DNA of 64,000 nt from an uncultured Paracoccaceae bacterium. Its GTDB lineage: Bacteria > Pseudomonadota > Alphaproteobacteria > Rhodobacterales > Rhodobacteraceae. Both the position numbers and the translations under genes were made by a program. Under the pieces are notes generated by a model that was given only the letters and a program-made list of their open reading frames with translations, ran no database searches and was not told the DNA's origin. Every line of letters starts with the position of its first letter. Positions within the stretch are counted from its first letter, which is position 1. The stretch is taken from positions 1 to 64,000 of the forward strand of contig CANNFQ010000007.1 in the NCBI GenBank assembly GCA_947503925.1, written 5' to 3'. Shown here piece by piece: positions 9,834 to 28,600 of the stretch.

Positions 9834-9846
9834 TAGCGGCAGGGCA

Positions 9847-9871
9847 GAAAAATCTACGGCGTAGATTTTTC
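9847..9871. terminator. Palindromic hairpin downstream of the chemoreceptor gene
   Basis: GAAAAATCTAC-GGC-GTAGATTTTTC: 11-bp perfect arms, 3-nt loop and a T-rich 3' arm, 13 bp after the chemoreceptor stop. It probably terminates transcription in either direction. A second copy with the same core lies 33 bp further on. Confidence 0.6.
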
Positions 9872-9904
9872 GGTACGGGCGTGACTGTGGCTCTGATGCG
9901 GCAC

Positions 9905-9929
9905 GAAAAATCTGTGTAACAGATTTTTC
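9905..9929. repeat. Second palindrome sharing the GAAAAATCT...AGATTTTTC core
   Basis: GAAAAATCTGT-GTA-ACAGATTTTTC, perfect 11-bp arms. The outer 9 bp of each arm equal those of the palindrome at 9847, while the inner 2 bp and the loop have changed in a compensating way. This is either a tandem terminator or a small repeat family. Confidence 0.6.
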
Positions 9930-10091
9930 CTTGTCCCGATGGCAGCAATAGACACGTGCATGCTGGCCAAACTCAGCCAGCACAGCGTTAATTCCAATCT
10001 CTCGATAACCAGTCACAGGAATGCGGACTACGGTCATCGTCACGCGATGATATCCGCCTTTCGGTTATGGAGTTAATGGGTCCTGACCCTG

Positions 10092-11879
10092 TCAGGGGCA
10101 AGTGATCGCAATCTTCCCGTACTCATCAGTCTGATAATACCCGGCCAGAACCCGAAGATCATCCGCCGTCATATCCTGCGATTGCCATGCCTTGGCGCTG
10201 ACCCCAAGCATTCGGGGCATGAGCATCGGCCAAAGCTGCGTATCCTGCGTTGTGAATTCCGACCAGAACGTGCCCTGCACGCCGACGATCCTGTCCTTCA
10301 GCGTGGGGTCAGGCACGGGGTCCCAATTGATCGTATCTTCCAACCCGACAAAAGCCGCCCAGCTGGCCCCCCAGTCATCGGGATCGTCGCTATGGGCCAT
10401 GTCCAGATAAACATGTTGAGCGGGTGTCATGACCACGTCATATCCCGCCCGCGCTGCGTTCAGCCCCGGCCCCTGACCCGTCCAGCTGAACAGGATCGCG
10501 TCATGCCCGATGCCGCCCTGGCTGCCTTGCGCGGCTTCTTCCCATGCGGCGGGGCGTTTGCCGTTTTGCGTGATGGTCCCGGCGAGGCGCGCAATGGTCC
10601 AGCCTTGCAAGTCCTTGGTCGTGTCCAGACCTTTGTCGGCCATCAGCGCACGGGCTTTGGGGCTGCTCATCCATGTCTCTTCCGGCAGTTCATCGCAGCC
10701 CAGATGCAGAATTTCGAATGGGAAAAGGTCGCCCACCTCTTCTGCGATATTGTTCAGGACTTCCCATGTTTTGAGCATGGCGGGGTTCAGGGCGTTTCGC
10801 TGATAGCCCTGAACGGATCGTTCTTGCCCATTGTCGCCGGGGTCGCGCGTGTCGGGATAGATTTTGGTGATGGCCAGCGCATGGGCGGGCGCCTCAATCT
10901 CTGGCATCACCTCGATATTCAGCGCCTTGGCATGGGCGATGATGGCGCGTGCCGTGTCCTTGCTATAGCTGCCGCCTTGTTCGATCTGCCCGGCAAAGAG
11001 GCCCGGCATGACGTGCCCTTCACCACGCAACGCTGTCTTTTGCCAAAGCGCCGGGTGGCTGTCGATTTCCAGCCGAAATGCCTCATCATCGGCGAAATGC
11101 CAATGGAACCGATTGAGTTTCAACAGCGCCATCAGATCAAGCAGCGACAGGATTGTCGCGGGGTCATAATAGTGGCGCGCGGTGTCCAGATGCTGTCCGC
11201 GCCAGCCGAAACGCGGGCCGTCGGTGATGCGCCCAAGCGGCAAGGGCCCTTGCTGCAGCAAGGTCAGCAGGGTGATCCCCGCGTAAAACCGCCCGCCATA
11301 GGAGTTGGCGGTGATCGTGGTGCCATCTGGCGTGATGTCGATTGTGTAGGCGTCAGTGGCTAAATCGCTGGTTTCAATGGTCGCCTTGTGCTGCCCATCA
11401 AACGCCATCCCCTGACGTTTGGCGAGGGCGGCGACCGCTGTTAGCGCGTCGTCATCATAGTTGAACCCGTCGATTGTGATGCTGCCGCCCGTTGCCTGCC
11501 AGCTTTCGGGCTGGGGGACGATGGGCAGGCCTGCAAACCGGCCATGATTTGCGGCTGGTTGGGGCCTGCGCCCGGCTTCGGTTGGGGGCAGGGGAATGAT
11601 TTCTTTGCCAGCGCGCAAATATGGCCCCAGTGGCATCCAGGCCCGGTTTGCCGGGGTGAAGCCTCCGCTATATTTGATTTCGACCATGTGCGTCTCACCG
11701 GTCTTGAGGTCGGGCAAGCTGACTTCGGTGTAGCTGCCCAGCGCATATAGCAGTGTTCCCCCCGCAACAGGTTCGAGCGGTGCCATGCCCGAAAAACAGA
11801 ATACCGGTGCAGTGATGTCCCGATCAGCTGTGATCCGGCAGATCAGGGTATCGCCGGTGATGTCGCAAATGTAGTCCAT
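10092..11879 (-). CDS. Beta-N-acetylhexosaminidase (GH20), cytoplasmic
   Basis: A 595-residue family 20 glycoside hydrolase that removes terminal beta-linked GlcNAc or GalNAc. The (beta/alpha)8 barrel starts near GWRGQHLDTARHYY; the catalytic Asp-Glu pair is in LHLGCDELPEE, and active-site Trp residues lie in HWHFADDE, AAWEEA and TFWSE. The first about 120 residues are a beta-rich extra domain. No signal peptide is present, so it should act on imported oligosaccharides in the cytoplasm. The start is the ATG one base after the stop of the GntR gene; longer readings run into that gene. It forms a regulator-enzyme operon divergent from the sugar ABC importer. Confidence 0.9.
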   Translation of the reverse strand: MDYICDITGDTLICRITADRDITAPVFCFSGMAPLEPVAGGTLLYALGSYTEVSLPDLKTGETHMVEIKYSGGFTPANRAWMPLGPYLRAGKEIIPLPPTEAGRRPQPAANHGRFAGLPIVPQPESWQATGGSITIDGFNYDDDALTAVAALAKRQGMAFDGQHKATIETSDLATDAYTIDITPDGTTITANSYGGRFYAGITLLTLLQQGPLPLGRITDGPRFGWRGQHLDTARHYYDPATILSLLDLMALLKLNRFHWHFADDEAFRLEIDSHPALWQKTALRGEGHVMPGLFAGQIEQGGSYSKDTARAIIAHAKALNIEVMPEIEAPAHALAITKIYPDTRDPGDNGQERSVQGYQRNALNPAMLKTWEVLNNIAEEVGDLFPFEILHLGCDELPEETWMSSPKARALMADKGLDTTKDLQGWTIARLAGTITQNGKRPAAWEEAAQGSQGGIGHDAILFSWTGQGPGLNAARAGYDVVMTPAQHVYLDMAHSDDPDDWGASWAAFVGLEDTINWDPVPDPTLKDRIVGVQGTFWSEFTTQDTQLWPMLMPRMLGVSAKAWQSQDMTADDLRVLAGYYQTDEYGKIAITCP

Positions 11880-11880
11880 G

Positions 11881-12636
11881 TTAGTCCAGTCGCAGTTCAG
11901 ACACGAAGTCGTAGATGTCGGAGCGGTAAAGCCCACTTGTGAATTCAACGGGCCGCCCGGAGGCCAGATAGCCGGTGCGTTCGATTTGCAGGATTGCGGC
12001 CCCTTCGGCCAGTTCCAGCAGTTCGGCAATGGGCGCCGTGGCATTGACCGCCGTCACCCGCTGGATCGCGCGGCTTGGCGCGGTCTGCCGCTTGCGCAAC
12101 ACCTCGTAAAGCGAGACACCGACCTTGTCGGGCCGGGGCAGCACGTCTTCGGGCAATGATGAGTATTCCAGCGCCATGGGCGCGCCATCACCGATCCGTA
12201 ACCGGTGAATGCGGGCGACCTGATGGTGGGGTGCCAGCCCAAGTGTCATCGCCTCTGCCGGGTTGGGGCGGAACAATCCGCGCAGCAACAGGCGGCTGGT
12301 TGATGCAATGCCACGCGCCTGCAGGTTTTCGGTGAAGGATACCAGAGAAGATAGCGATTGTTCGAATCGCGCGCCCTGCCCGCGCACGAAGGAGCCGGCG
12401 CCCTGCCGTTGATCGATCAGCCCATCCGAGACCAGTTCCGCAATGGCCTTGCGCACGGTGACCCGGCTGACATCTGCCAGGCTGGCCATATCACGTTCGG
12501 CGGGCAGTTGATCGTCAGCTGCCAGTTCACCGGTCGAGATTAGCCCGCCAATATGGCGATAAAGCTGTTTGTATCGCGGCCCGCGTCCTTGGCGATACCA
12601 TTTCTCGGGGTGCAGTTGCGCTGTCAGTTCTGTCAT
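11881..12636 (-). CDS. GntR/HutC-family transcriptional regulator (NagR/DasR-like)
   Basis: A 251-residue repressor-type protein with an N-terminal winged helix (residues ~20-90: PRYKQLYRHI, LPAERDMASLADVSRVTVRKAI, LIDQRQGAGSFV) and a C-terminal UTRA effector domain (about 105-245, ending in the usual FTSGLYRSDIYDFV). HutC-type relatives next to nagA genes sense GlcNAc-6-P or GlcN-6-P. Here the neighbouring GH20, ABC and nag genes make an amino-sugar phosphate the likely effector; this is inference. The ATG has AAGGG six bases upstream; a TTG eight codons earlier lacks one. Matching TGGTAT half-sites in the adjacent divergent promoter region suggest that it represses both directions. Confidence 0.88.
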   Translation of the reverse strand: MTELTAQLHPEKWYRQGRGPRYKQLYRHIGGLISTGELAADDQLPAERDMASLADVSRVTVRKAIAELVSDGLIDQRQGAGSFVRGQGARFEQSLSSLVSFTENLQARGIASTSRLLLRGLFRPNPAEAMTLGLAPHHQVARIHRLRIGDGAPMALEYSSLPEDVLPRPDKVGVSLYEVLRKRQTAPSRAIQRVTAVNATAPIAELLELAEGAAILQIERTGYLASGRPVEFTSGLYRSDIYDFVSELRLD

Positions 12637-12651
12637 GGTCGCCCTTTTCGC

Positions 12652-12672
12652 TGGTATCAATATTTAATACCA
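12652..12672. promoter_or_regulatory. Candidate GntR operator (TGGTAT-N9-ATACCA)
   Basis: A perfect inverted repeat just upstream of the GntR start codon. It belongs to a set of TTGGTAT-type half-sites, with further copies at 12700-12707 (TATTGGTA, inverted against ATACCAATA at 12667-12675) and 12754-12760. The placement fits autorepression and repression of the divergent operon. Confidence 0.55.
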
Positions 12673-12753
12673 ATAGAACCAATTTTTGAAAGTCTTGATT
12701 ATTGGTACATCATTAAACTGTTGTTTTAAAGGATAAAAAATCAATAAACAAAT

Positions 12754-12766
12754 TTGGTATTATAAT
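12754..12766 (+). promoter_or_regulatory. Promoter -10 region of the ABC operon overlapped by an operator half-site
   Basis: TATAAT at 12761-12766 directly follows a TTGGTAT half-site in a very AT-rich 130-bp stretch. No clear -35 is seen at 17 bp, so the -10 assignment is tentative. A regulator bound here would block polymerase. Confidence 0.4.
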
Positions 12767-12842
12767 GGTCGCAAAAAAAACGACCCACGTTAAGATTAAG
12801 TTGTAACAGCGATTCGTGACATTGTTCCCGGGGGGAAACACA

Positions 12843-13781
12843 GTGGTAGATACAGCCCAAGCGCAGTTGGAGGCAGTACGGCAGCAACGCGCACGCGCCT
12901 TGCCCGAAAGCGTTTTTGCCTGGTTGCTGATTGGTCCCGCGATGCTGTTTATCGCCGTTATCGTGGCCTGGCCGCTTGCCGAGACCATCCGCCTTTCGTT
13001 CATGGAAGCTGATTTGGGTGGTGAGCAATATGTCGGCTTGGCCAACTACGCCGATCTGGTTGACAGCCGCAAATTTCACCAGACGATTGTCCGCACCTTT
13101 TACTGGATGTTCCTGTCGGTCAGTCTGAAACTGATCCTGGGTCTGATCGGCGCGACCTTGTTGAATGCAGCCGTGCCGGGCCGTGCCCTGTTCCGCGTGC
13201 TGGTCATGCCGCCCTGGATCATCCCGATTGCGATCGGCTGTATCGGTTGGCTATGGCTCTATAACGGCTATTTCGGTGTGTTGTCGGGCACGATGATGCA
13301 GCTTGGCATTACTGACGGCCCGTTTGAATTCCTGGCCCATAAGCAGTCGGCGTTCTATTCGGCGGTTGTCACAGATGTCTGGGTTGGCACCCCGATGGTG
13401 ACCCTGTTCTTTCTTGCCGCGATGCAGGGCGTGCCCCGTGACCTTTACGAGGCGGCCTATGTTGATGGCGCCAGCCGTTGGTATCGCTTTCGCCGCATCA
13501 CGATCCCGCAGATCATGCCGGTGATTGTGTCCATGTCCCTGCTATCTGCGATCTTTACCTTCAATTCGTTCGAGATCATCTGGATCCTGACCGAAGGTGG
13601 GCCGCGCAGCGCAACCACAACCCTGATCGTGGATACCTACAAGACCGCCATCAGCAACTTCAAATTCGGCGAAGGGTCGGCACGCGCGGTGGTTATCGTG
13701 ATCCTGCTGGGCACATTCAGCCTTATCTATCTGTTCTTCCTCAACAAGGTGAACAAGCATTACGGGAGCGGCAAGAAATGA
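12843..13781 (+). CDS. Carbohydrate ABC transporter permease, first subunit (MalF/UgpA type)
   Basis: A 312-residue inner-membrane protein with about six transmembrane helices, the first at WLLIGPAMLFIAVIVAWPL. The cytoplasmic EAA loop near residue 215 reads EAAYVDGASRWYRFRRITIP and docks the ATPase. I choose the GTG preceded by a GGGGGGA ribosome-binding site; a GTG nine codons earlier is less well placed. It is the first gene of a long operon driven from the AT-rich divergent promoter next to the GntR gene, and its stop overlaps the start of the second permease (ATGA). The context indicates uptake of an amino-sugar oligosaccharide. Confidence 0.9.
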   Translation: MVDTAQAQLEAVRQQRARALPESVFAWLLIGPAMLFIAVIVAWPLAETIRLSFMEADLGGEQYVGLANYADLVDSRKFHQTIVRTFYWMFLSVSLKLILGLIGATLLNAAVPGRALFRVLVMPPWIIPIAIGCIGWLWLYNGYFGVLSGTMMQLGITDGPFEFLAHKQSAFYSAVVTDVWVGTPMVTLFFLAAMQGVPRDLYEAAYVDGASRWYRFRRITIPQIMPVIVSMSLLSAIFTFNSFEIIWILTEGGPRSATTTLIVDTYKTAISNFKFGEGSARAVVIVILLGTFSLIYLFFLNKVNKHYGSGKK

Positions 13782-14620
13782 TGGATCGCTATTCAAAACT
13801 GCAGATGGTCGGCATCTACTTTGCCATCACCATATTCCTGATCTTCATCCTGCTGCCATTCTTTGAGATGTTCATGGCCTCCCTGCGCCCGCTGGAGCAT
13901 CTGTTCCGCAGCCCCTATCAGTTCTGGTCGGATGATTTCAGCTTTCAGGCCTATCGCGACATGTGGGTCACGGTGCCCCTGTTGGGCCGCTACATCCTGA
14001 ACTCGATCTTTATCGCGGGGATGGTGACCGGCTTGACAATGATCTTTGTGATCCCTGCCGCCTATGCCTATGCCCGCCTTGAGTTTCCTTTCAAGAACCT
14101 GACGCTGGGCATCTTTTTGGGTGTAAACATGTTCACGGGTGCGGTTCTGTTGATTCCGCTTTACCGTGTGCTGCGCACCATGGGCCTGCTGAACACCTAT
14201 TGGTCGATGATTGTGCCCGGTGTCGCCTTCCTGATCCCGACGGGTATCTGGTTGCTGCGGTCCTATCTGGAAAAGATCCCGCGCGAGCTGGAAGAGGCCG
14301 CTTTTGTTGATGGTGCCAGCCGCATGTATACCCTACGCCGCGTTGTGCTGCCGCTGGCGGTGCCGGGTCTGATCGTTGTCGGTGTCGCCGTGTTCATCGG
14401 TGCCTATGCCCAGCAGTTCCTGTTTGCCATCACGTTCAATCAGCAGCGCGAATTGCAGCCGCTGCCCGCCGGTCTGTTTGAATTTATCGGGTATCAGGAT
14501 GTGACCTGGAACCAGATGATGGCCGCCGCCCTGGTTGGTGTGCTGCCCGTCATGATCATCTTTCTGTTTTTACAAAAATACTTGGTTGCCGGGCTGACTG
14601 CCGGTGCCGTCAAAGAGTAA
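13778..14620 (+). CDS. Carbohydrate ABC transporter permease, second subunit (MalG/UgpE type)
   Basis: A 280-residue partner of the preceding permease with six predicted helices; the first is at about residues 10-32 (YFAITIFLIFILLPFFEMFM). The EAA loop is EEAAFVDGASRMYTLRRVVLP. It starts at an ATG overlapping the previous stop; a second ATG follows immediately. Together the two permeases form the membrane channel of a CUT1-type importer. Confidence 0.9.
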   Translation: MMDRYSKLQMVGIYFAITIFLIFILLPFFEMFMASLRPLEHLFRSPYQFWSDDFSFQAYRDMWVTVPLLGRYILNSIFIAGMVTGLTMIFVIPAAYAYARLEFPFKNLTLGIFLGVNMFTGAVLLIPLYRVLRTMGLLNTYWSMIVPGVAFLIPTGIWLLRSYLEKIPRELEEAAFVDGASRMYTLRRVVLPLAVPGLIVVGVAVFIGAYAQQFLFAITFNQQRELQPLPAGLFEFIGYQDVTWNQMMAAALVGVLPVMIIFLFLQKYLVAGLTAGAVKE

Positions 14621-14648
14621 TCAAACCAGTCAACAAGGGAGACTACCA

Positions 14649-15860
14649 ATGAAACTAACCAAACTGACACTTACGGCGGCGCTTTTGTCCACCGGTGCGA
14701 CCGTGGCTGTGGCCGATGGCCATGCCAAAGAGGTGCACTTCATCATGTGCGGCGGCGAAGTTCGCGAGGCTGATCAGGCTGTTGTCGATCAGTTCGAGGC
14801 CGATCATGATGGTGTGACCGTCAATCTGGAGGCTGTGCCATGGGGCACATGTCAGGACAAATCCCTGACGCTGGCTGCCGCTGGCGACCCGCCATCCATC
14901 GCCTATATGGGCAGCCGCACATTGCGTCAGCTGGCCAATAACGACCTGATTGTCCCGTCCGAGATTCAAAGCGACGTCACCTATCAGGAAGGTGTTCTGA
15001 ACACCGTCACCATCGAAGGCACCACATGGGGTTACCCACACGCGTTTTCGACCAAGGCCCTTTATATCAACTGCGACATCGTTGAAGCCTCTGGTCAGGA
15101 ATGTGTGGCCCCTGCAACTTGGGATGACATGTACACGATGGCAAAGGGCGTTGTGGACAACACGGATGCTGCTGGTGTCGGCCTTGCGGGCAAGGATTTC
15201 GACAACACCATGCACCAGTTCCTGAACTACCTTTATTCCAATGGTGGTGTGGTGATTGACCCTGCATCGGGTGAAAACATGCTGGACAGCCAGCAAACCC
15301 GCGAGACGCTGGAGTTTTATGGCAAGCTGGTTGACGTCGCCCAGGAAGGCCCAACCGCATGGGAACGTGACCAGTTGAAGGACCTGTTCAACGACGGTCA
15401 GATCGCGATGTATGTCCAAGGCCCATGGGGTTACGGACAACATAACGAAGATATCAACCAGATCGTGGCCCCAGTCCCTGCTGGCCCATCCGGCGAAAGC
15501 GGTACTATCCTGATAACGGACAGCATCGTTGTTTTCAAAGGTTCCGGTCACGAAGAACTGGCCCATGAGCTGGCACAGCGCATCACATCCGGTGACAGCC
15601 AGTATGACCTTGATTCCAGCTGGGGACTGACACCCATTTTGGACTATACCGCGATGGGTCGTGATGAAGTTTATTATACCGATGGTATCTGGCCAAATTT
15701 CACCGCCACGATTTCTACAGGTGGTCCAGAGCCGCTGGTCGAAGATTTCAAATCACTGCAGTCGGTCTTCACCAACATGGTCCAAGGCATCATCCTGAAG
15801 GATGACACTGTTGACAATCTGGTGACCATCGCCGGTGAGGAACTGGACGACGCGCTTTAA
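14649..15860 (+). CDS. Sugar ABC transporter substrate-binding protein
   Basis: A 403-residue periplasmic protein. The signal peptide occupies about residues 1-22 (MKLTKLTLTAALLSTGATVAVA); the mature two-lobe binding protein (SBP family 1) follows, with PPSIAYMGSRTLRQLA, a WGYPHAFSTKALYIN hinge region and EGPTAWERDQLKDLFNDGQIA. A strong AGGGAG lies in front of the ATG. Three Cys residues are present in the mature part (MCGG, WGTC, YINC region). The likely ligand is a beta-linked amino-sugar oligomer such as chitobiose, judged only from the neighbouring genes. Confidence 0.92.
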   Translation: MKLTKLTLTAALLSTGATVAVADGHAKEVHFIMCGGEVREADQAVVDQFEADHDGVTVNLEAVPWGTCQDKSLTLAAAGDPPSIAYMGSRTLRQLANNDLIVPSEIQSDVTYQEGVLNTVTIEGTTWGYPHAFSTKALYINCDIVEASGQECVAPATWDDMYTMAKGVVDNTDAAGVGLAGKDFDNTMHQFLNYLYSNGGVVIDPASGENMLDSQQTRETLEFYGKLVDVAQEGPTAWERDQLKDLFNDGQIAMYVQGPWGYGQHNEDINQIVAPVPAGPSGESGTILITDSIVVFKGSGHEELAHELAQRITSGDSQYDLDSSWGLTPILDYTAMGRDEVYYTDGIWPNFTATISTGGPEPLVEDFKSLQSVFTNMVQGIILKDDTVDNLVTIAGEELDDAL

Positions 15861-15880
15861 GGGCGATCCTCCCTGAGCCC

Positions 15881-15907
15881 TCGGGTGGCGGTATCGCTGC
15901 CACCCGA
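15881..15907 (+). promoter_or_regulatory. Intercistronic hairpin after the binding-protein gene
   Basis: TCGGGTGGC and GCCACCCGA pair perfectly around a 9-nt loop, without a T-tract, in the 84-bp gap before the ATPase gene. Such structures after binding-protein genes often stabilise the upstream mRNA or attenuate downstream expression, so that the binding protein is made in excess. Confidence 0.6.
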
Positions 15908-15944
15908 AATTCCCGAATGATCTTACATACGGAAACATGACGCT

Positions 15945-17045
15945 ATGGCTACGCTTGACCTTCTTTCGATCAGTAAATCCTTTGGCGCCGCGAAGGTGCT
16001 GCATGACATTAGTCTGGCCATCAATGACAAGGAATTTGTGGTGTTTGTCGGCCCATCGGGCTGTGGTAAATCCACCCTGCTGCGTATCATCGCCGGGCTG
16101 GAAGAGGCCACATCAGGTCAGATCATGATTGGCGGCGATGACGTCAGCAATGCCCATCCCGTCGATCGCGGCATTTCGATGGTTTTCCAGTCTTATGCGC
16201 TTTACCCGCATCTGAGTGTTTATGAAAACATCGCCTTTCCCCTGCGCGTTCAGAAGCTTTCGCAGCAGGACATGGATACCCGCGTGCAGCGCGCGGCCGA
16301 CATCCTGCAACTGACCGACAAGTTGCAGTTGAAGCCTGGCCAGCTATCGGGTGGTCAGCGTCAGCGTGTGGCTATTGGCCGTTCGATTGTTCGCAATCCG
16401 AAGATTTTCCTGTTTGACGAACCGTTGTCGAACCTTGACGCGGCCTTGCGCGGCGACATGCGTGTGGAGCTGAGCCAACTGCATCGCAGCCTTGATGCCA
16501 CTATGGTTTACGTCACGCATGATCAGGTCGAGGCGATGACGATGGCCGACCGGATCGTTGTGTTGAACGGTGGTCGGGTGGAGCAATTCGGCACCCCGAT
16601 GGAGCTGTACCATCATCCCAAGACGAAATTCGTCGCCTCTTTCATTGGTCAGCCGAATATGAACCTGGTCCCTGCGACCGTGACCGGTGCTGATGCATCC
16701 AGTCTTGGCGTAGAACTGCCCGGCGGTTACCGGATGACATTGCCAGTTGAGGCAAGCACCGTCGCCGTGGGCGACAAGGTCGAGGTTGGCATGCGCCCCG
16801 AACATGTCCAATTGGGCAAGGCCGGATTGGAGGTTAACGTCAACGTGCTGGAACGTCTGGGTGGTGTGTCGATCACCTACGGCACCGCCGCTGATGGCAC
16901 CCGGTTCTGCGCCTCGCTGCCTGGTGATGCGCAGATTGATGAAGGTGCGCCAATCACGTTGGGTGCAGCACCCGAGGATTGTCATGTATTTGACAAATCC
17001 GGCGATGTGTTGCGCAGGCGATCCGCCCCGGCCCTTGTCGCATGA
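15945..17045 (+). CDS. ABC transporter ATP-binding protein (UgpC/MsmK type)
   Basis: A 366-residue ATPase of the sugar importer. Walker A GPSGCGKST is at residues 36-44, the Q-loop Gln is in MVFQSYALYP, the signature is LSGGQRQRV, Walker B is FLFDEP, then D-loop SNLDAALR and switch His in YVTHDQVEAMT. The C-terminal about 120 residues form the OB-fold regulatory domain (MRPEHVQLG). One ATPase of this type can serve several importers, but its place here makes it the partner of the two permeases upstream. Its end overlaps the oxidoreductase start by 4 bp. Confidence 0.94.
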   Translation: MATLDLLSISKSFGAAKVLHDISLAINDKEFVVFVGPSGCGKSTLLRIIAGLEEATSGQIMIGGDDVSNAHPVDRGISMVFQSYALYPHLSVYENIAFPLRVQKLSQQDMDTRVQRAADILQLTDKLQLKPGQLSGGQRQRVAIGRSIVRNPKIFLFDEPLSNLDAALRGDMRVELSQLHRSLDATMVYVTHDQVEAMTMADRIVVLNGGRVEQFGTPMELYHHPKTKFVASFIGQPNMNLVPATVTGADASSLGVELPGGYRMTLPVEASTVAVGDKVEVGMRPEHVQLGKAGLEVNVNVLERLGGVSITYGTAADGTRFCASLPGDAQIDEGAPITLGAAPEDCHVFDKSGDVLRRRSAPALVA

Positions 17046-18178
17046 GGATCGTCACCGCAGGGATTGGCCTGCGTGCGGGCCATGTTTTGTCGATCATGAA
17101 AGAGGCGATGCCCGAGATCGACTTTGTTGGCTATTACGACCCGCAGCCCAGCCATCTGGACATGATTGGCATGGACACGCCGCGCTATGACGATGTGGCT
17201 GTGATGCTGGCAGAAGCGAATCCGGATCTGTTTTTCGTCGGCTCGCCCAACAGTTTTCATCTGGACCATATCAAGCTGGGTCTTGCCGCGGGCGTGCGCA
17301 TGTTCACCGAAAAGCCTGTCGTGACCACCAAGGCGGACACCATGGAGCTGGCTGCGTTGCTGGCCGAACATGGTACGGATCGGGTGATGGTGGGTCTTGT
17401 GTTGCGCTATTCGCAGCACATGGTTGACCTTCGCAAGGTGCTGGATCAGCTTGGCCCGATTACATCTTTGGAGGCGAGCGAACATATCGCCCCCTATCAC
17501 GGCGCGTTTTTCATGCGCGACTGGCGTCGCATGATCAAATGGTCGGGCGGCTTCATGCTCGAAAAATGCTGCCACGACATCGATATCTACAATATGGTAT
17601 GCCACTCACGGCCGCAGCGGGTCGCAAGCTTTGGCGGGCGCAAGTCGTTCGTACCAGAGTTTGCCCCCACGCTGAATTCCGAGAACGAGATCATGCACCG
17701 CAAGAAAAGCGTGTGGGAAAGCGTTGACGGTCCGTTCCGTTCCGACGGGGACATCATCGATTACCAGACCGCGATCCTGCAATATGAAAGCGGTGCAAGC
17801 CTGTCCTTTCACACCAATCTGAACGTCCCGGATGAACATCGCCGGTTCTGTATCATGGGTGCGCTGGGCATGGCGGAAGGCGATTTTGTGCGTGGGTCGC
17901 TGAAGGCGACCGCCCGCGATGGGTCGGTGATCGCCGATCATGATTATACCCAGATGGACACCACCAAGGCGTCGGCCCACTACGGCGCCGATCACATGAT
18001 GGTTGATGATATTCTGGCCTATCTGAAAGGCGAGACTGACGGCTTGCCCGTGGGTGTGACCGACGCGTTGGAGGCCGGACTGGCCGCAATGGCGATTGAC
18101 GAGGCCCGGATCACCGGGCGCGTCATCGATCTGACGGACATTTGGAAAGAATTTGACAGCTATGGATTACGCGCATGA
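17042..18178 (+). CDS. Gfo/Idh/MocA family oxidoreductase
   Basis: A 378-residue NAD(P)-binding protein. The N-terminal Rossmann fold has an unusual glycine motif (AGIGLRAGHV); FTEKPV carries the conserved Lys of the family, and the catalytic-type HDID follows GGFMLEKCC near residues 175-185. The C-terminal alpha/beta domain is complete. Members oxidise or epimerise sugars, cyclitols or glycosides, and some (GH109) are NAD-dependent glycosidases. Being translationally coupled to the ATPase before it and the SIS gene after it, it should act on the imported amino sugar or its disaccharide, but the reaction cannot be deduced. Confidence 0.85.
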   Translation: MRIVTAGIGLRAGHVLSIMKEAMPEIDFVGYYDPQPSHLDMIGMDTPRYDDVAVMLAEANPDLFFVGSPNSFHLDHIKLGLAAGVRMFTEKPVVTTKADTMELAALLAEHGTDRVMVGLVLRYSQHMVDLRKVLDQLGPITSLEASEHIAPYHGAFFMRDWRRMIKWSGGFMLEKCCHDIDIYNMVCHSRPQRVASFGGRKSFVPEFAPTLNSENEIMHRKKSVWESVDGPFRSDGDIIDYQTAILQYESGASLSFHTNLNVPDEHRRFCIMGALGMAEGDFVRGSLKATARDGSVIADHDYTQMDTTKASAHYGADHMMVDDILAYLKGETDGLPVGVTDALEAGLAAMAIDEARITGRVIDLTDIWKEFDSYGLRA

Positions 18179-19179
18179 CCGTTTCTGACACCAACCCTGG
18201 ACGTTTCATGGCGACGGAGGCGGCAGCAGCGATGGATGTGTTCTGTCGCACTGTGCGACAGCAGGTTGACGGCACTGGCATGCGGGCCACCCGCGCCATT
18301 TACACCATTGCGCGGGGGTCATCAGATGCTGCGGCGAACGTCCTGTCTTATGAGTTCATGCGCACGCTGGGCGCGCCGATGACATCCTTGCCCCCGTCGG
18401 TGTTTTCGCTGGGCGAAGGCGTCATGATGCAGGACTCCGTGGCCTTGGTGGTCAGCCAGTCAGGCGCCAGTGATGATCTGGTCCGGTCGGCCAAGGGGGC
18501 CGTTGCGGCAGGCGGTAAGGTGTTTGCGATCACTAATCAGCCGGACAGCCCGGTCGAAAAGGTGGCCAAGCTGACCGTGCCAATTGGCGCAGGTGAAGAG
18601 ATTGCCGTGCCTGCAACCAAAACGGTCATCGGTGCGATTGCTGCTGGTATGGCATTGCTGTCATCGGTGCAGCCCGCCTATCGCGATGCTGCCCTTGCGG
18701 CGGCCAAGGCGCTGGATGGTCTGTCGATGCAGCATCCTGATGCCGCCGCCATTCAGCCCGCCTTGCTGCGCGCGCGCAACGTTTATGTCATAGGTCGCGA
18801 CACCGGTTACGGTGCCGCGCAAGAGGTGGCGCTGAAGTTGAAGGAGTGCTGCGCGATCCACGCCGAGGCCTATTCCAGTTCAGAGGTTTTGCATGGCCCC
18901 GTCCAGCTGGCCACCAACCCGCTGATGGTGCTGATCCTTGATAACGGATCGGATATTGTGCAGGACAGCCTTGATCAGGCGGAGGCCCGTTTTCGTGCGA
19001 TTGATTGCGACGTGCATAGGATCAGCCCTGCTGATATCGGTGCCGGTGATCTGGTGCCTGCTGCTGCGGCTGCCGTATTGCTGGCGATGATGTATCCGAT
19101 CATTCTGAATACCGCATTGGCGTTGGGCCTGAACCCGGACCAACCCGAAACCCTGTCGAAAGTGACCAAGACCACATGA
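18175..19179 (+). CDS. SIS-domain protein, glucosamine-6-phosphate deaminase type (NagB-II/GlmS isomerase-like)
   Basis: A 334-residue protein made of two sugar-isomerase (SIS) domains, like the C-terminal half of glucosamine synthase without the glutaminase part. Phosphate-binding motifs are visible in VSQSGASDD and ARGSSDAA; the active-site Glu/His region is HAEAYSSSEVLHGPVQ near residue 230. NagB-II proteins convert glucosamine-6-phosphate to fructose-6-phosphate and ammonia. It overlaps both neighbours by 4 bp. A second, different SIS protein follows, so each probably takes a different amino-sugar phosphate. Confidence 0.85.
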   Translation: MTVSDTNPGRFMATEAAAAMDVFCRTVRQQVDGTGMRATRAIYTIARGSSDAAANVLSYEFMRTLGAPMTSLPPSVFSLGEGVMMQDSVALVVSQSGASDDLVRSAKGAVAAGGKVFAITNQPDSPVEKVAKLTVPIGAGEEIAVPATKTVIGAIAAGMALLSSVQPAYRDAALAAAKALDGLSMQHPDAAAIQPALLRARNVYVIGRDTGYGAAQEVALKLKECCAIHAEAYSSSEVLHGPVQLATNPLMVLILDNGSDIVQDSLDQAEARFRAIDCDVHRISPADIGAGDLVPAAAAAVLLAMMYPIILNTALALGLNPDQPETLSKVTKTT

Positions 19180-20228
19180 GCGATGACCTGACCAAATGGG
19201 CGACTTGGCGCGAATTGTCCCAGCAGCCGGATATTTGGCGTGACTGGGGCCGTATGCTCAATGTTGCCCGCTTGCGCGCATGGATTGCCGCGCAAGATTT
19301 TGATTGCGTCTGGTTCTGCGGGGCGGGCACAAGCGCCTATATCGGTGATATCGTTGCCGCCTGGGTGCCTGGTGCCCGGTCCGTGCCATCAACGGATATG
19401 GTCGCTGATCCCGCCCGCCTGTTGCAACATGTGCGCCCGCTGGTTGTCAGCTTTGGCCGGTCCGGTAACAGTGCAGAGACGATCGGCACACTGGATGCGC
19501 TGGATGCCCTTGCCCCGGATGCCCCGCGCCTGAACATCACCTGCAACAAGGATAGCGCATTGGCGACCCGTCCGTCGTCTGCCCCGACCGAAGTAATTAT
19601 CCTGCCAGATGCAACCCATGATGCGGGTTTTGCGATGACGTCGAGCTTTTCGACGATGTTACTGACGGCTCTCGCCCTGTTTGATGAAGAATGCGATTTT
19701 GCGGCCCGATGCGATGCCTTGGCCGCCGAGCTGGAAGCGATGTTGCCCGATTTGCAGGCGGGTCCAGTGCCGGGCAGGGCGGTTTATGTGGGTTCCGGCC
19801 CGCTGGCTTTTGCCGCGCGGGAGGCGGCGTTGAAGGTGATGGAACTTTCCGCAGGCCAGATTCCGGCCTTGTGGGACAGCAGCCTGGGCTTTCGCCATGG
19901 CCCGAAATCCTTTGTCACGGATGAGACGGTGGTCACTGTGTTTACCAGCCCGGCCGCGCCAACCAGCCAATATGATACCGATCTGGTGGCAGAGCTGCGC
20001 GCCCAATTTCCCGGCGTCCGTGTCATTGCCGCCGGTCCTGATGCGGATATTCCCATTCCGATGCCTTTCGGTCCGGCCTGGGCTGCGCCGCTATGCGTTG
20101 CCATTGCGCAAGTCAGTGGCGTGGTCTGGTCTGATGCGATGGGCCTGAATGTCGATGATCCTTTTGTTGGCAAAGGCACGCTGAGCCGCGTTGTGGCGGG
20201 CGTGAAACTCTATCCGGTGGCGTCATGA
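19176..20228 (+). CDS. SIS-domain protein, AgaS-like (amino-sugar-6-phosphate deaminase/isomerase)
   Basis: A 350-residue double-SIS protein closer to AgaS than to NagB-II: FCGAGTSAYIGD, SFGRSGNSAET and REAALKVMELSAGQIPALWD followed by LGFRHGPKSFV are AgaS hallmarks. AgaS converts galactosamine-6-phosphate to a tagatose phosphate and ammonia. Its presence beside NagB-II suggests that the locus handles both gluco- and galacto-configured amino sugars, or that the two form a hetero-oligomer; this is inference. The start and stop overlap the adjacent genes by 4 bp. Confidence 0.83.
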   Translation: MSDDLTKWATWRELSQQPDIWRDWGRMLNVARLRAWIAAQDFDCVWFCGAGTSAYIGDIVAAWVPGARSVPSTDMVADPARLLQHVRPLVVSFGRSGNSAETIGTLDALDALAPDAPRLNITCNKDSALATRPSSAPTEVIILPDATHDAGFAMTSSFSTMLLTALALFDEECDFAARCDALAAELEAMLPDLQAGPVPGRAVYVGSGPLAFAAREAALKVMELSAGQIPALWDSSLGFRHGPKSFVTDETVVTVFTSPAAPTSQYDTDLVAELRAQFPGVRVIAAGPDADIPIPMPFGPAWAAPLCVAIAQVSGVVWSDAMGLNVDDPFVGKGTLSRVVAGVKLYPVAS

Positions 20229-21157
20229 AGGCGGCGGGGATTGATCTGGGCGGCACCAAGATCGAGGTGCAGTTATTTGACGATGACTGGCACCCGGTTA
20301 CACGCCAGCGCAGGGATACCCCATCAGATTACGACGCGCTTGTTGCTGCCATCGCCGATCAGATTGCATGGGCAGAGGCAAAGGCCGGTGCCCCGCTTCC
20401 CGTGGGGATTGGGGCGGCGGGATTGATCAACCCCGCGACCGGGTTGGCATTGACCGCCAACCTTCCCGCCACGGGGCGCCCGTTTCCGGCTGATATCGCC
20501 ACTGCTGCCGGACGGCCAGTGACTTATGTGAATGATTGCCGTGCCCTTGCCTTGTCAGAGGCGGTTTTTGGTCTCGGTGCCGGGCATCGCACCGTGATGT
20601 CGCTGGTGCTGGGTACTGGCGTTGGCGGCGGTATTGCGGTTGATCGAGCCATTCTGCAAGGCCCGACCCTGACGGGCGGTGAATTTGGCCACACATCCGC
20701 GCCCGCGCATCTGATCGCTGCCCATGATCTGCCGATCTGGCGCTGTGGTTGTGGCCGATTGGGCTGCATCGAGACTTATGTCGCCGGTCCGGGGATGAGC
20801 CGATTGGCCGCTCATATGACCGGCCAAGCCGTGACCCCACCCGAAATCGCCGCCAGTCGTGATGGCGACATGGCGCAGGTCTGGCAGGTCTGGTGCGCGC
20901 TTTGCGCGGATATGCTGCACAGTCTGACCCTGACGGTCGATCCTGATCTGATCGTGCTGGGCGGCGGCCTAAGCCAGATCGATGGCATTGTTGCTGACTT
21001 GACGGCTGCTGCTCATGACGCCCAGATCGGCGATTTCGGGGTCGTGCCCATCGCCGTGGCACAGGGTGGTGATACCAGTGGTGCCCGGGGTGCCGCCTAT
21101 GCCGCCTGGGCTGACCAACACGCTGCCACCCCGCAACAACAAATCCGTCGAGGATGA
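20225..21157 (+). CDS. ROK family sugar kinase (probable N-acetylglucosamine kinase)
   Basis: A 310-residue cytoplasmic kinase with the ATP-binding motif DLGGTKIEV at the N-terminus, the catalytic Asp in YVNDCRALALSE, the second phosphate loop in LGTGVGGGIA, and the ROK zinc motif CGCGRLGCIE with its upstream HTSAPAH. ROK kinases of this length, without a DNA-binding domain, phosphorylate GlcNAc, ManNAc or glucose. With nagA next to it, GlcNAc (or GalNAc) to the 6-phosphate is the expected reaction. Three bases separate it from nagA. Confidence 0.88.
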   Translation: MKAAGIDLGGTKIEVQLFDDDWHPVTRQRRDTPSDYDALVAAIADQIAWAEAKAGAPLPVGIGAAGLINPATGLALTANLPATGRPFPADIATAAGRPVTYVNDCRALALSEAVFGLGAGHRTVMSLVLGTGVGGGIAVDRAILQGPTLTGGEFGHTSAPAHLIAAHDLPIWRCGCGRLGCIETYVAGPGMSRLAAHMTGQAVTPPEIAASRDGDMAQVWQVWCALCADMLHSLTLTVDPDLIVLGGGLSQIDGIVADLTAAAHDAQIGDFGVVPIAVAQGGDTSGARGAAYAAWADQHAATPQQQIRRG

Positions 21158-21160
21158 GAT

Positions 21161-22300
21161 ATGAGCCAGTTCTGGATCACCGCTGATCGCATTTTTGATG
21201 GACAGACCCTGCTGGACGGTATGGGTCTGCGGATCACGGAAGGCGCGGTGGCCGAGATCGCCGCCGCCCCGGCAGAGGCGACGCGGATCAGGGGCTGCCT
21301 GACCCCGGGATATGTGGATCTGCAGGTGAATGGTGGTGGTGGTGTGATGCTGAACACTACACCGACCCGCGACGGCATGGCCCGGATCGCTGCGGCCCAT
21401 CGCCGGTTTGGTACCGTGGCCATCATGCCCACGGTGATTACCGACAGTCCCGAGGTGATGGAGCAGGCGGCGGACGCAGCGCTGGCGGCCCAAGGGAATC
21501 TAGGCGTCGTTGGATTGCATATTGAGGGGCCGCATATCGCGCAGGTCCGGCGCGGCACTCATGATGGCCGGTTTATCCGTCCGCTGGATGGTCGGACAAT
21601 GCGGGTGGTCAGCCGCCTACGCGAAGCGGATGTGCCGGTGATGATCACATTGGCCCCCGAGACGGTCGCAGCGGAGCAAATCACCGCCCTCACCCAATTG
21701 GGAGCGGTTGTGTCCATCGGCCACACCGATGCCACTGCTGATCAGGTGGAGGATGCGATTGCTGCCGGCGCCAGCTGTGCCACCCATCTGTTTAACGCGA
21801 TGTCGCCGATGGCCACCCGTGCCCCCGGGACGGCAGGGGCCGTTTTGAATGCCGAGATTTATGCAGGCATCATTTGCGACGGGCATCATGTGGATGATCG
21901 CATGGTGCAGTTGGCCCTGCGTGGCCGTCCGTTGCCAGACCGGCTGTTCCTGGTGTCTGACGCAATGTCTACTGTAGGTGGTCCTGATCATTTCGATCTT
22001 TATGGCCAACCCGTCCATCTGGAAAATGGTAAACTGATCAACGCCGAAGGCGGGCTGGCGGGCGCGCATGTAACCCAGGCTGAGGCTGTTCAGCGCCTTG
22101 TTCGAGTGCTGGATGTGGCGCCGGAACGCGCGTTGTGCATGGCGATTACAACACCTGCCGCCGCGATTGGTCAGCCGGATCTGGCATCCCTGATTGGCCG
22201 CCCGTTAACAGATATTTTACGCTTGGCGGATGACATGCAGGTGCTTGGCACCCTTGCTGATGCTGTAACAGGACCCACAACCGTTGATGCTGCAGAGTAA
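21161..22300 (+). CDS. nagA: N-acetylglucosamine-6-phosphate deacetylase
   Basis: A 379-residue amidohydrolase-superfamily metalloenzyme that removes acetate from GlcNAc-6-P (many also take GalNAc-6-P). Visible motifs are GYVDLQVNGGGG, the metal-binding Glu in LHIEGPH, His residues in SIGHTDAT and ATHLFNAMS, CDGHHVDD, and the catalytic Asp in LVSDAMS. The product feeds the two SIS proteins. It is coupled to the ROK gene and overlaps the cutC start by 14 bp. Confidence 0.94.
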   Translation: MSQFWITADRIFDGQTLLDGMGLRITEGAVAEIAAAPAEATRIRGCLTPGYVDLQVNGGGGVMLNTTPTRDGMARIAAAHRRFGTVAIMPTVITDSPEVMEQAADAALAAQGNLGVVGLHIEGPHIAQVRRGTHDGRFIRPLDGRTMRVVSRLREADVPVMITLAPETVAAEQITALTQLGAVVSIGHTDATADQVEDAIAAGASCATHLFNAMSPMATRAPGTAGAVLNAEIYAGIICDGHHVDDRMVQLALRGRPLPDRLFLVSDAMSTVGGPDHFDLYGQPVHLENGKLINAEGGLAGAHVTQAEAVQRLVRVLDVAPERALCMAITTPAAAIGQPDLASLIGRPLTDILRLADDMQVLGTLADAVTGPTTVDAAE

Positions 22301-23015
22301 CGATTTCACGCTGGAAGTCTGTGTCGAAAGTGCCGTGGGGCTGCTGACCTGTGAAGGCCGCGCTGACCGGATCGAACTTTGCAGTGCGCTTGGTCTGGGT
22401 GGACTGACCCCAGGGCCGGGTTTGATCCGGCGGGCGCAGGCCTATACCGTGCCGGCGCATGTGCTGATCCGCCCACGCCCGGGCGACTTTATCTATGATC
22501 GCCATGATCTGGCTGCGGCGATTGCCGATATCTGCTTTGTCCGGGAATGCGGGTTGGCCGGTGTTGTTATAGGGGCGGCCCGCGATGATCGCCTTGATCT
22601 AGCCGCCATGCGCAACATGATTGATGCGGCAGAGGGGTTGCATGTCACCCTTCACCGGGTGGTCGACATCCTGCCTGATCCGATGCTGGTGTTGGATCAG
22701 GCAATTGCCCTGGGTGTCGGACGTATCCTGACTGCGGGCGGTGCGCAGGGCGCGGCCGACGGGACCGCGCAATTGACAAGGATGCAAGACGCCGCCGCTG
22801 ACCAGATTGAGATCATGGCAGGCTCCGGTGTGACGGCGGCCAATGTCGTGCAGATCGCGAATGCAACCGGGATCAGGTCCTTTCATGCCTCATGCACATC
22901 AGTCGCCCCAAAGAATGGCAGTTTGGCTGCGTTCGGCTTTGGCGAGCAGTTGGTCACCGACAAAGGCAAGATCGAAGCGTTGCGCGCGAAGCTGAATGCG
23001 TTTGCAACAACCTGA
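22287..23015 (+). CDS. cutC: CutC family protein
   Basis: A 242-residue TIM-barrel protein of the CutC family: LEVCVESAVGLLTCEGRADR, IELCSALGLGGLTPG, VLIRPRPGDFIY, HRVVDILPDP and ILTAGGAQ are all present. CutC was first described in copper homeostasis, but its biochemical activity is unresolved and several family members sit in sugar operons. Here it overlaps the 3' end of nagA and is the last gene of the tightly coupled amino-sugar operon, which argues for a carbohydrate role. The copper island starts 2 kb downstream, so a copper link by position cannot be excluded but looks accidental. Confidence 0.88.
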   Translation: MLQSNDFTLEVCVESAVGLLTCEGRADRIELCSALGLGGLTPGPGLIRRAQAYTVPAHVLIRPRPGDFIYDRHDLAAAIADICFVRECGLAGVVIGAARDDRLDLAAMRNMIDAAEGLHVTLHRVVDILPDPMLVLDQAIALGVGRILTAGGAQGAADGTAQLTRMQDAAADQIEIMAGSGVTAANVVQIANATGIRSFHASCTSVAPKNGSLAAFGFGEQLVTDKGKIEALRAKLNAFATT

Positions 23016-23064
23016 CCAGTTATTTGATCACAAGTGGTGCTGTCTAATCCTGTTGGGGGATGTA

Positions 23065-23093
23065 TTGTCGCGACAAATCACCGGCATTGCCGG
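23065..23093. promoter_or_regulatory. Two palindromes in the leader of the IlvD/Edd gene
   Basis: TTGTCGCGACAA (23065-23076) is a perfect 12-bp palindrome, followed at 23081-23093 by CCGGCA-T-TGCCGG. Both lie in the 104-bp gap between cutC and the dehydratase and could be a repressor operator and a small hairpin. If the protein started at the upstream ATG (23060) they would be coding. Confidence 0.45.
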
Positions 23094-23119
23094 GTGCCTC
23101 AGACGTGAAAGATAGCAAA

Positions 23120-24916
23120 ATGGCCAAAATGAGCAAAGAGGACCTGCGTTCGCGCCAATGGTTCGCGAATGCCGATGATTCTGAGATGACAGCGCTATAT
23201 CTGGAGCGTTACCTGAATTACGGGCTGACCCGCGAGGAACTGCAGGGCGGCAAGCCGATTATTGCAATTGCTCAGACTGGCAGCGATCTGTCGCCTTGCA
23301 ACCGCCACCATATCGAATTGGGAAAGCGCGTCCGTGACGGCATTATTGCCGCTGGGGGGACATGTATTGAGGTGCCGGTGCATCCGATCCAAGAAACCGG
23401 CAAACGTCCGACAGCCAGCCTGGACCGTAACCTGTCCTACTTGTCGCTGGTCGAGTCGCTTTATGGCTATCCGATTGACGGTGTTGTGCTGACCATTGGC
23501 TGTGACAAGACGACCCCCGCCTTGTTGATGGCTGCCGCGACCGTCAACATTCCAGCCATTGCCCTGTCCGTTGGTCCGATGCTGAATGGCTGGTGGGATG
23601 GCGAACGCGCCGGATCCGGTACAGTGATCTGGAAAGCCCGCGAGATGATGGCCAAAGGTGAGATTGATGGCGACGGTTTCATGGAAATCGCCGCATCCTC
23701 CGCCCCTTCCGTGGGCTATTGCAACACGATGGGCACGGCCACGACAATGAATTCGTTGGCCGAGGCACTGGGCATGCAATTGCCCGGCAGTGCAGCCATT
23801 CCCGCCCCTTATCGTGAGCGTGGTCAGATCAGTTATGAAACCGGCAAGCGGATCGTTGAGATGGTGTGGGACGATCTGCGTCCGTCCGACATCATGACGC
23901 GCGAGGCGTTTGAAAATGCGGTTGTCATCAACTCTGCCATTGGCGGGTCTTCGAACGCCCCGATCCATCTGAACGCGATTGCCGCCCATCTGGGCGTGCC
24001 ACTGGACAATGATGATTGGCAACGTCTGGGCCATCATATCCCGCTATTGGTGAATTTGCAGCCTGCGGGCAAATATCTGGGCGAGGATTACCATCGTGCT
24101 GGTGGGGTGCCTTCGGTCGTGGCCGCATTGCTGGATGCCGGGTTGCTGCCCTATCCGCAGGCAGTGACGGCCAATGGGCAAAGCATGGGCGACAATTGTG
24201 CCGGGCAGCAGGCCAGTAATGCCGATGTCATCCGCCCGGTTTCCGATGCGTTGGTCACAGATGCCGGGTTCTTGAACCTCAAGGGCAATCTGTTTGAAAG
24301 CGCGATCATGAAAACCAGCGTGATCAGTGCCGCGTTCCGTGCCCGCTATCTGTCCAACCCTGACGATCCCGATGCGTTCGAAGGCCGGGCTGTCGTGTTT
24401 GACGGACCAGAGGATTATCACCACAGGATTGATGATCCGGCTGAAAACATTGACGAAAACTGCGTTCTTTTCATGCGCGGTGCGGGCCCAAAGGGGTATC
24501 CCGGCGGTGCAGAGGTGGTGAATATGCGCGCCCCGTCTTACCTGCTGAAAAAAGGTGTGGATGCGTTGCCTTGCATCGGCGATGGCCGTCAATCGGGGAC
24601 GTCCGGGTCGCCTTCGATCCTGAATGCGTCGCCAGAGGCTGCAGATAGCGGTGGCCTGGCGCTGTTGCAGACCGGTGACCATGTGCGCATCGATCTGGGC
24701 AAGTGCACCGCTGATATGCTGGTCCCGCTGGATGAACTGGCCGACCGTGCCGCCAAGCTGGCGGAGGCGGGCGGCTATCACGGCCCCGATAGCCAGACAC
24801 CATGGCAGCAGTATTTCCGCGAGTTGGTGGGCGGTCTGGACAAAGGTATGACACTGCGGGATGCGCCGGGCTATCGCGATATCGCGCGCAAAGCGCATCC
24901 GCGTAACAGCCATTGA
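23120..24916 (+). CDS. IlvD/Edd family dehydratase, sugar-acid (pentonate) type
   Basis: A 598-residue iron-sulfur dehydratase. Three Cys expected to hold the cluster are in [17 protein letters not shown] and [11 protein letters not shown]; the metal and substrate region EIPVHP-like ([14 protein letters not shown]), GSGT and [10 protein letters not shown] follow. Length and motif spelling fit L-arabonate/D-xylonate dehydratases better than the biosynthetic dihydroxyacid dehydratase IlvD. It would remove water from an aldonic acid to give a 2-keto-3-deoxy acid. Together with the Gfo/Idh oxidoreductase it suggests an oxidative side route at this locus; this is inference. Start: ATG after GAAAGA; GTG five codons upstream and ATG at 23060 are alternatives. 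Confidence 0.85.
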
Positions 24917-26667: not shown

Positions 26668-26741
26668 GATAGCTCTCCTGATGCATTAAGTTTAAGGCCG
26701 GTGTATGGTTGCCACTTCATCTAATGTAGATGCTTTATATA

Positions 26742-26756
26742 TACCCCCATAGGGTA
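26742..26756. promoter_or_regulatory. CsoR-type operator (TACC-N7-GGTA) in the divergent promoter
   Basis: The 21-bp near-palindrome ATATACCC-CCATA-GGGTATAT (26739-26759) contains TACC-N7-GGTA, the same spacing as known CsoR sites of the TACCC...GGGGGTA kind. It lies 48 bp before csoR and 75 bp before the glutaredoxin-MauE gene, so one repressor could control both. The same layout recurs at 31209-31223. Confidence 0.7.
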
Positions 26757-26803
26757 TATCAAGGAGATGTATCATTGGGGATAAAAAAGAGGGAGCGCAA
26801 CTC

Positions 26804-27076: not shown

Positions 27077-27159
27077 CTGTTCATTCGAGGGTTTTTACGA
27101 GCTGGAGCAGGTAACCGCACCACGTCGATAGTGAGACAAAACGGCCGTCAGAACATTTC

Positions 27160-28587: not shown

Positions 28588-28600
28588 AGAAGTTTCCTCT

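Follow-up and report, generated by a model that had tools for sequence, protein, structure and literature searches.

The window analysed here is a stretch of 64,000 nucleotides from an uncultured marine Paracoccaceae bacterium (GenBank assembly GCA_947503925.1, contig CANNFQ010000007.1, positions 1 to 64,000 of the forward strand), and the system under study is the amino-sugar gene cluster at positions 10,092 to 24,916. Judged by sequence comparison, our verdict is that of a conserved locus for the probable dual salvage of N-acetylglucosamine (GlcNAc) and N-acetylgalactosamine (GalNAc). The genes gntR and GH20 are transcribed leftward, and those for two permeases, a solute-binding protein, an ATPase, a Gfo/Idh protein, SIS1, SIS2, ROK, nagA, cutC and ilvD rightward. 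The features, with the evidence for each (ORF, open reading frame; NAD, nicotinamide adenine dinucleotide), are:

10092..11879, minus strand: GH20 beta-N-acetylhexosaminidase (PF00728, 4e-88; present in 62/80 related loci)
11881..12660, minus strand: GntR/UTRA repressor (PF07702, 6e-35; PF00392, 2e-16)
12754..12770, plus strand: direct repeat TGGTA-N6-TGGTM, likely to be the operator for the divergent promoter (conservation in intergenic regions)
12816..13781, plus strand: ABC permease 1 (ORF; conserved synteny)
13778..14620, plus strand: ABC permease 2 (ATG at 13778 read from the sequence; synteny)
14649..15860, plus strand: solute-binding protein (PF01547, 2e-31)
15945..17045, plus strand: ABC ATPase (ORF; synteny)
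17042..18178, plus strand: Gfo/Idh/MocA protein, proposed NAD-dependent glycosidase (PF01408/PF02894)
18175..19179, plus strand: SIS1, NagB-II-like glucosamine-6-phosphate deaminase (NF046059, 183 bits; matches to 7kqa and 8eol)
19176..20228, plus strand: SIS2, AgaS-like galactosamine-6-phosphate deaminase/isomerase (TIGR02815, 245 bits; 3c3j, 1e-59)
20225..21157, plus strand: ROK kinase, putatively for N-acetylhexosamine (HexNAc) (PF00480, 3e-54; NF009835, N-acetylglucosamine kinase, 196 bits)
21161..22300, plus strand: NagA, GlcNAc-6-phosphate deacetylase (NF008371, 250 bits; TIGR00221, 209 bits)
22287..23015, plus strand: CutC-family protein with a triosephosphate isomerase (TIM) barrel (PF03932, 200 bits; co-occurrence with Gfo)
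23060..24916, plus strand: IlvD/Edd sugar-acid dehydratase, likely start 23120 (NF009560/PRK13017, 989 bits)

An earlier reading made from the letters alone (the sequence-only reading) had named these genes and had noted overlaps of 4-14 bp at nearly all junctions from the Gfo/Idh gene (gfo) to cutC. Both points were confirmed: every gene that it named is an open frame where it was placed, and the measured junctions agree. Overlaps of 4 bp were found at perm1/perm2, ATPase/gfo, gfo/SIS1, SIS1/SIS2 and SIS2/ROK; ROK and nagA are separated by 3 bp, and nagA and cutC overlap by 14 bp counted from ATG or 17 bp from TTG. Ten locus proteins were assigned to their families by profile scan (GntR-UTRA, GH20, solute-binding, Gfo/Idh/MocA, SIS twice, ROK, NagA, CutC and IlvD/Edd); for the other three, both permeases and the ATPase, naming was by eye and synteny. 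For GH20, the solute-binding protein and ilvD, the true start probably lies further downstream than the one listed. The GH20 ORF was listed from 12044, but an ATG stands at 11879, immediately after gntR; by eye, the product from this ATG shows no clear signal peptide, and the enzyme is therefore probably cytoplasmic. The solute-binding protein has an ORF from 14604, and its start was placed at an internal Met before a stretch that resembles a signal peptide by eye.

Comparison of gene neighbourhoods was carried out on several samples. A family sample of 149 genomes was searched with the Gfo/Idh/MocA protein (hereafter Gfo), and near full-length relatives above 300 bits were obtained in 20 of them, own genome included; this threshold was placed at a score gap (333 to 66 bits) after the gap had been seen. 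Twenty neighbourhoods were taken, namely 19 family relatives and the second Gfo copy of the own genome, three of them short (4.4, 12 and 13 kb). A further set of 80 related loci comprises the best of those listed in a scan of genome contigs; some repeat family genomes, and L061/L129 and L062/L127 are pairs on the same contig. Loci of at least 14 kb with ROK and NagA were counted as complete (n=52), the other 28 being short or without ROK or NagA. In the complete loci the profiles found SIS1 in 49, SIS2 in 46, AgaZ in 39, GH20 in 49, CutC in 20 and IlvD in 3. Dozens of genomes repeat the order GH20-gntR//importer-Gfo-SIS1-SIS2-ROK-(AgaZ)-NagA(-CutC), which argues for clustering beyond chance, except for the terminal ilvD. 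Gene content, homology, synteny and co-occurrence, together with the predicted fold described below, are established.

The galacto-configured branch suggested by the sequence-only reading is the part of its interpretation that is supported; the oxidative branch, treated below, is not. Support comes from the AgaS-like SIS2 and its association with proteins of the AgaZ/GatZ type. In 7 of the 20 neighbourhoods, where it was first noted, ROK and nagA are separated by an additional gene, recognised by eye as AgaZ/GatZ/KbaZ. This gene occurs in 39/46 complete loci with AgaS and in 0/6 without (Fisher 8e-5; here and below P-values take no account of kinship or shared ancestry and are uncorrected for the number of comparisons). 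Locus L068 was counted as positive because its AgaZ is encoded just past cutC, on the opposite strand. AgaZ-type proteins were located in whole genomes with PF08013, which was found in 15 of the 21 genomes searched and which in L068 picked out the gene recognised by eye. Seven complete loci have SIS2 and no AgaZ (L061, L062, L063, L066, L073, L087 and L136). Eight genomes whose loci have SIS2 and lack AgaZ between ROK and nagA were tested (those of six of the seven, L062 being outside the search, plus L068 and L069), and all eight carry the protein elsewhere. The own genome encodes a GatZ at G000:C10:153255 (508 bits); by eye, the adjoining genes encode a mannitol-dehydrogenase-like protein and an ABC transporter, and the locus appears polyol-related. 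A GatZ protein that stands alone may act as a tagatose-6-phosphate 4-epimerase. An AgaS-like and an AgaZ/GatZ protein, the combination looked for in a GalNAc pathway, were hence found in the same genome. Among loci with SIS1 and no SIS2, AgaZ is present in the genomes of L094, L098, L103 and the short L102 (a partial match); the PF08013 search gave none in the genome of L106, of the same type, nor in those of L110 and L111, which have neither SIS gene.

SIS1 is like the NagB-II glucosamine-6-phosphate deaminases by homology (8eol, 8eym and 8fdb; 139 bits over residues 41-333 of 334). It reads KLKECCAIHAEAYSSSEVLHGP and ETLSKVTKT, so that the catalytic Lys/Glu/His and C-terminal Lys of a GlmS-isomerase-like site, which we take to be the residue set of NagB-II, are present. 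SIS2 resembles the AgaS family of GalNAc pathways over most of its length (TIGR02815 over residues 10-347; 3c3j over 45-347 of 350, E 1e-59), and differs from those pathways in being paired with a lone AgaZ, which in the own genome is encoded elsewhere. Several points weigh against the assignment of these steps. All four enzymes fall below the cut-offs of the specific models: SIS1 reaches 183 bits against 430 for NF046059 (an equivalog model), SIS2 245 against 529 for TIGR02815 and ROK 196 against 380 for NF009835, and NagA is below those of NF008371 and TIGR00221. AgaZ is absent from the window itself; AgaS stands without AgaZ in 7/52 complete loci, and neither SIS gene is present in 2/52.

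Solved relatives of Gfo were sought by single sequence and by profile, and the best by both were 8qc3 and 8qc2, the latter being first with the profile. A structural model based on an alignment of 44 sequences (predicted local distance difference test, pLDDT, 93.5; predicted template-modelling score, pTM, 0.92) was compared with the PDB by using Foldseek. Ranks 1-11 were oxidoreductive sulfoquinovosidases (8qc2, 8qc8, 8qc5, 8qc6, 8qc3 and 8zn9; template-modelling score, TM, 0.75-0.82; 21-23% identity), and ranks 1-7 were SqgA chains, to which the Rossmann plus C-terminal alpha/beta fold is closest; mainly inositol dehydrogenases and other Gfo/Idh oxidoreductases followed after rank 11. PMC10755693 describes GH188 enzymes as metal-independent, acting by transient C3 oxidation and cutting alpha and beta glycosides, and describes roles for Lys107, Glu189 and His193 of ArSqgA. 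Residues given there were mapped on the premise, inferred from the EKCCH motif, that the numbering of the paper and that of the PDB chain differ by 13; with this offset Glu163 of the paper lands one residue from E147 of the window protein. The three residues correspond to K91, E174 and H178 of Gfo, all invariant in the 44-sequence alignment, and the sulfonate-binding Arg166 to I149, also invariant. A GH188 sulfoquinovosidase was rejected because I149 stands in place of that arginine.

The gfo gene adjoins an importer gene in 74/80 loci (two of the six exceptions lie at contig ends), which argues that Gfo acts on an imported glycoside, as expected of a first intracellular step. From fold and context, we consider Gfo to be redox-neutral and to act on such a glycoside, and it is proposed as a candidate NAD-dependent HexNAc glycosidase working beside GH20. 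Gammaproteobacterial loci L124, L128 and L131 combine Gfo with GH20, NagA and NagB-I and have no SIS genes, so Gfo is not tied to GalNAc.

Against the glycosidase assignment, the following has to be weighed. Sets of Lys, Glu (or Asp) and His are common among Gfo/Idh dehydrogenases, and the set alone is therefore not proof of a glycosidase. The C2 residue Tyr136 of ArSqgA corresponds to L121, and the match of His321, near the leaving group, to H313 of an invariant HYG motif was seen with the other SqgA chain, over a stretch of no more than 3.3 bits. The inositol dehydrogenase 4n54 scored 85 bits in the profile search, compared with 88 for the best sulfoquinovosidase, and inositol dehydrogenases appear from Foldseek rank 12 with TM 0.69-0.77. 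The single-sequence model was useless (pLDDT 32.5). Three Gfo loci have an importer and no amino-sugar genes: L047 (G000:C2:357501-377400), where the paralogue of the own genome (Gfo2, 9798-10967; 56% identity) lies beside another ABC importer, and L127 and L129, with the same arrangement. Gfo is most like GH188 SqgA (8qc2, 8qc3, 8qc5, 8qc6, 8qc8) and the sulfoquinovosidase 8zn9 in sequence, fold and the aligned active-site Lys/Glu/His, and unlike them in its identity of 21-23%, in I149 and L121, and in its amino-sugar rather than sulfosugar context. The NAD-dependent N-acetylgalactosaminidases of GH109 share a Gfo/Idh-type fold and a HexNAc substrate, and 2ixa matches the N-terminal part of Gfo, but with 34 bits only; the string GGHGG, which we take to be the GH109 loop motif, is absent, the loop being AHYGAD.

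Transient use of NAD, possible in Gfo/Idh proteins, could also serve an oxidoreductive epimerase that interconverts HexNAc configurations (e.g. at C4 or C3) before phosphorylation, and the joint presence of gluco and galacto modules in most complete loci (SIS1 with SIS2 in 45/52) would suit such an enzyme. Two separate deaminases would make it superfluous, however, and Gfo persists in loci with a gluco deaminase only (L094, L098, L103 and L106; L124, L128 and L131), so that we regard an epimerase as distinctly improbable. Two kinds of neighbour were observed beside these genes. Proteins that we take to be MlrC-like recur near Gfo or CutC (L041, L049, L051, L053, L054, L057, L132, L135, L139 and L163-L165), and an alanine-racemase-like protein was recognised by eye in L048, L051, L052 and L057.

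The oxidative branch would make Gfo an ordinary sugar dehydrogenase supplying an aldonate to IlvD. The Gfo fold is compatible with this, the adjacency of IlvD is kept in L061, L062 and L063, and the closest solved relative of IlvD bears the name galactonate dehydratase. These three are, however, the only ones of the 80 loci (some cut short) with ilvD at this place, and 3/52 of the complete ones, and the terminal ilvD is the part of the gene order that does not recur. Strong IlvD relatives (E <1e-150) were found in 30 of 61 family genomes and Gfo in 10; six have both (own, G013, G018, G032, G056 and G057), and the two lie together in the own genome only, being on another contig or megabases apart in the other five (different contigs in the drafts G032 and G056). 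Further points against the branch are the spacing from cutC (44 bp to the first ATG of ilvD, and about 104 bp if ilvD starts where the 7m3k alignment suggests) and the failure to recognise a lactonase or keto-acid aldolase within the locus. No TGGTA repeat was found before ilvD, up to two mismatches being allowed. The nearest solved relatives of Gfo are redox-neutral NAD-dependent glycosidases. The branch was rejected on account of the rarity of IlvD at related loci and its separation from Gfo elsewhere, and we hold it to be very unlikely; on comparative grounds ilvD is most likely a lineage-specific, incidental neighbour and not part of the system.

CutC has the PF03932 domain (200 bits, cut-off 23.3) and matches 3iwp (4e-37), and it falls below the equivalog NF008603 (158 against 311 bits). 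The family is widespread; it comprises what are presumably a human type (3iwp) and an E. coli type (1twd), and is annotated for copper homeostasis; unlike that annotation, cutC of the window sits in an amino-sugar operon. The copper label has been doubted. CutC is present in 28/149 family genomes, in 18/20 with Gfo and 10/129 without (Fisher 3e-14); in some cases it lies well away from the locus. All 20 Gfo genomes are among the 88/149 that have NagA-like proteins (E up to 1e-20). Within this NagA-bearing set CutC is found in 18/20 genomes that have Gfo and in 9/68 that do not (3e-10), and among genomes without Gfo in 9/68 with NagA and 1/61 without (0.019). A second collection gave CutC in 38/50 Gfo genomes, or 34/46 after removal of four with CutC in the locus. 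These 50 had been picked mainly because the locus taken had no CutC; in some cases the contig breaks off at the locus and CutC may follow just beyond it, and at least two are repeats (L114 and L115 are the family genomes G032 and G065). The class sample of 289 genomes has CutC in eight and Gfo in six, with both in two (own and one congener); the link is thereby shown for the family only.

These counts bear on another explanation, in which Gfo would be a 3-dehydrogenase and CutC an eliminase/hydratase in a two-protein route of oxidation, elimination, hydration and reduction for amino-sugar glycosides. Besides the co-occurrence, gfo is immediately preceded by cutC in L050, L053, L054, L055 and L057, and a tree of 88 CutC proteins needs seven changes of membership in a Gfo locus, at least two of them forced by well-supported branches. 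The route would have a parallel in the dehydrogenase/eliminase/hydratase routes known for plant glycosides; according to PMC10628242, Agrobacterium handles a 3-keto-glucoside with an eliminase of the TIM-barrel type, an oxidoreductase of the Gfo type and a putative hydratase. The known eliminases, however, belong to another TIM-barrel family and use Mn. We know of no chemistry for CutC. Furthermore, 12/50 Gfo genomes lack CutC (several small or draft), the class sample has four Gfo genomes without CutC and six with the reverse, and across the phylum CutC is mostly apart from amino-sugar or Gfo genes. The two-protein route is considered unlikely, and CutC itself as the enzyme of elimination or hydration, with Gfo oxidising C3 in oxidoreductive HexNAc deglycosylation, slightly more so.

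CutC as a general amino-sugar gene was not upheld either: among 35 phylum-wide neighbourhoods, NagA, SIS or GH20 genes were nearby only in L178, itself a Gfo locus, and L185 and L195 have a ROK gene near CutC. Speaking for an amino-sugar link, NagA lies beside cutC in L149 and L153, two of the 10 family genomes with CutC and no Gfo. ROK-CutC pairs recur in L141, L142, L146, L151, L152, L153, L157 and L160; with L185 and L195 these are stretches without Gfo, from alphaproteobacteria and one other proteobacterium, in which cutC is next to or near a ROK-type kinase gene. As a separate observation, the CutC match in G447, G456 and G460 (the genomes of L088, L099 and L104) is in two pieces within one frame, an insertion-like split.

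The region between gntR and perm1 in the window carries TTGGTATTATAATGGTC. The pattern TGGTA-N6-TGGT[AC] was found exactly in 39/56 such intergenic regions and with at most one substitution in 54/56; 50 block shuffles gave averages of 0.12 and 1.74 regions, respectively. It was derived from the same related sequences and contains a TATAAT-like stretch, so its conservation may in part reflect ancestry or a promoter. The direct repeat is the probable GntR operator of the divergent promoter. The own genome has no second exact copy, and a regulon search in it gave 34 one-mismatch sites, near the control level (24 with the backwards pattern). A search for inverted-repeat operators gave a best spacing in only 14/56 regions, a promoter/terminator scan gave no more than shuffles, and Rfam and tRNA scans gave no match. 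Downstream of the locus, at 25103-29479 on the minus strand, a thioredoxin-like/MauE-like pair, a multicopper oxidase and a CopD-like membrane protein were recognised by eye.

The explanation preferred here, which we give about an even chance, is that of a single regulated locus serving to import short N-acetylhexosamine glycosides, with both GlcNAc and GalNAc in them, and to degrade them completely in the cytoplasm; all enzyme activities and the substrate we infer. The ABC importer would bring in the glycoside, GH20 would cleave beta-linked HexNAc in the cytoplasm, and Gfo would cleave, NAD-dependently, a HexNAc glycoside resistant to GH20: bound NAD would oxidise C3, the aglycone would be eliminated, water added and C3 re-reduced, with no net oxidation. 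ROK would then produce HexNAc-6-phosphate and NagA deacetylate it; SIS1 would convert glucosamine-6-phosphate into fructose-6-phosphate and SIS2 galactosamine-6-phosphate into tagatose-6-phosphate, which the GatZ/AgaZ encoded elsewhere in the own genome would pass to central metabolism. CutC may act in or beside the pathway, GntR would repress through the TGGTA direct repeats, and IlvD would stand outside it.

A GlcNAc importer of a roseobacter, nagTUVW of Ruegeria pomeroyi, is described in PMC10130141; its likeness to the present importer, amino-sugar import in a roseobacter, was drawn from that description. No paper on this Gfo/SIS/SIS/CutC locus was recognised by title or opening of the abstract in one literature collection without preprints and with few subscription papers. 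Amino sugars derived from chitin and glycoproteins are abundant in the marine habitat. The locus appears to be modular, with gluco and galacto parts, AgaZ occurring in it only together with AgaS. The link between Gfo/Idh and CutC is a concrete, testable proposal for CutC, and the two-protein route, if true, would be the first in which CutC has a metabolic role, as well as a new way of amino-sugar deglycosylation. The preferred explanation, if true, would assign a function to a gene annotated merely as 'oxidoreductase' and, in marine bacteria, widen the reach of sulfoquinovosidase-type NAD-dependent glycosidases to include amino sugars.

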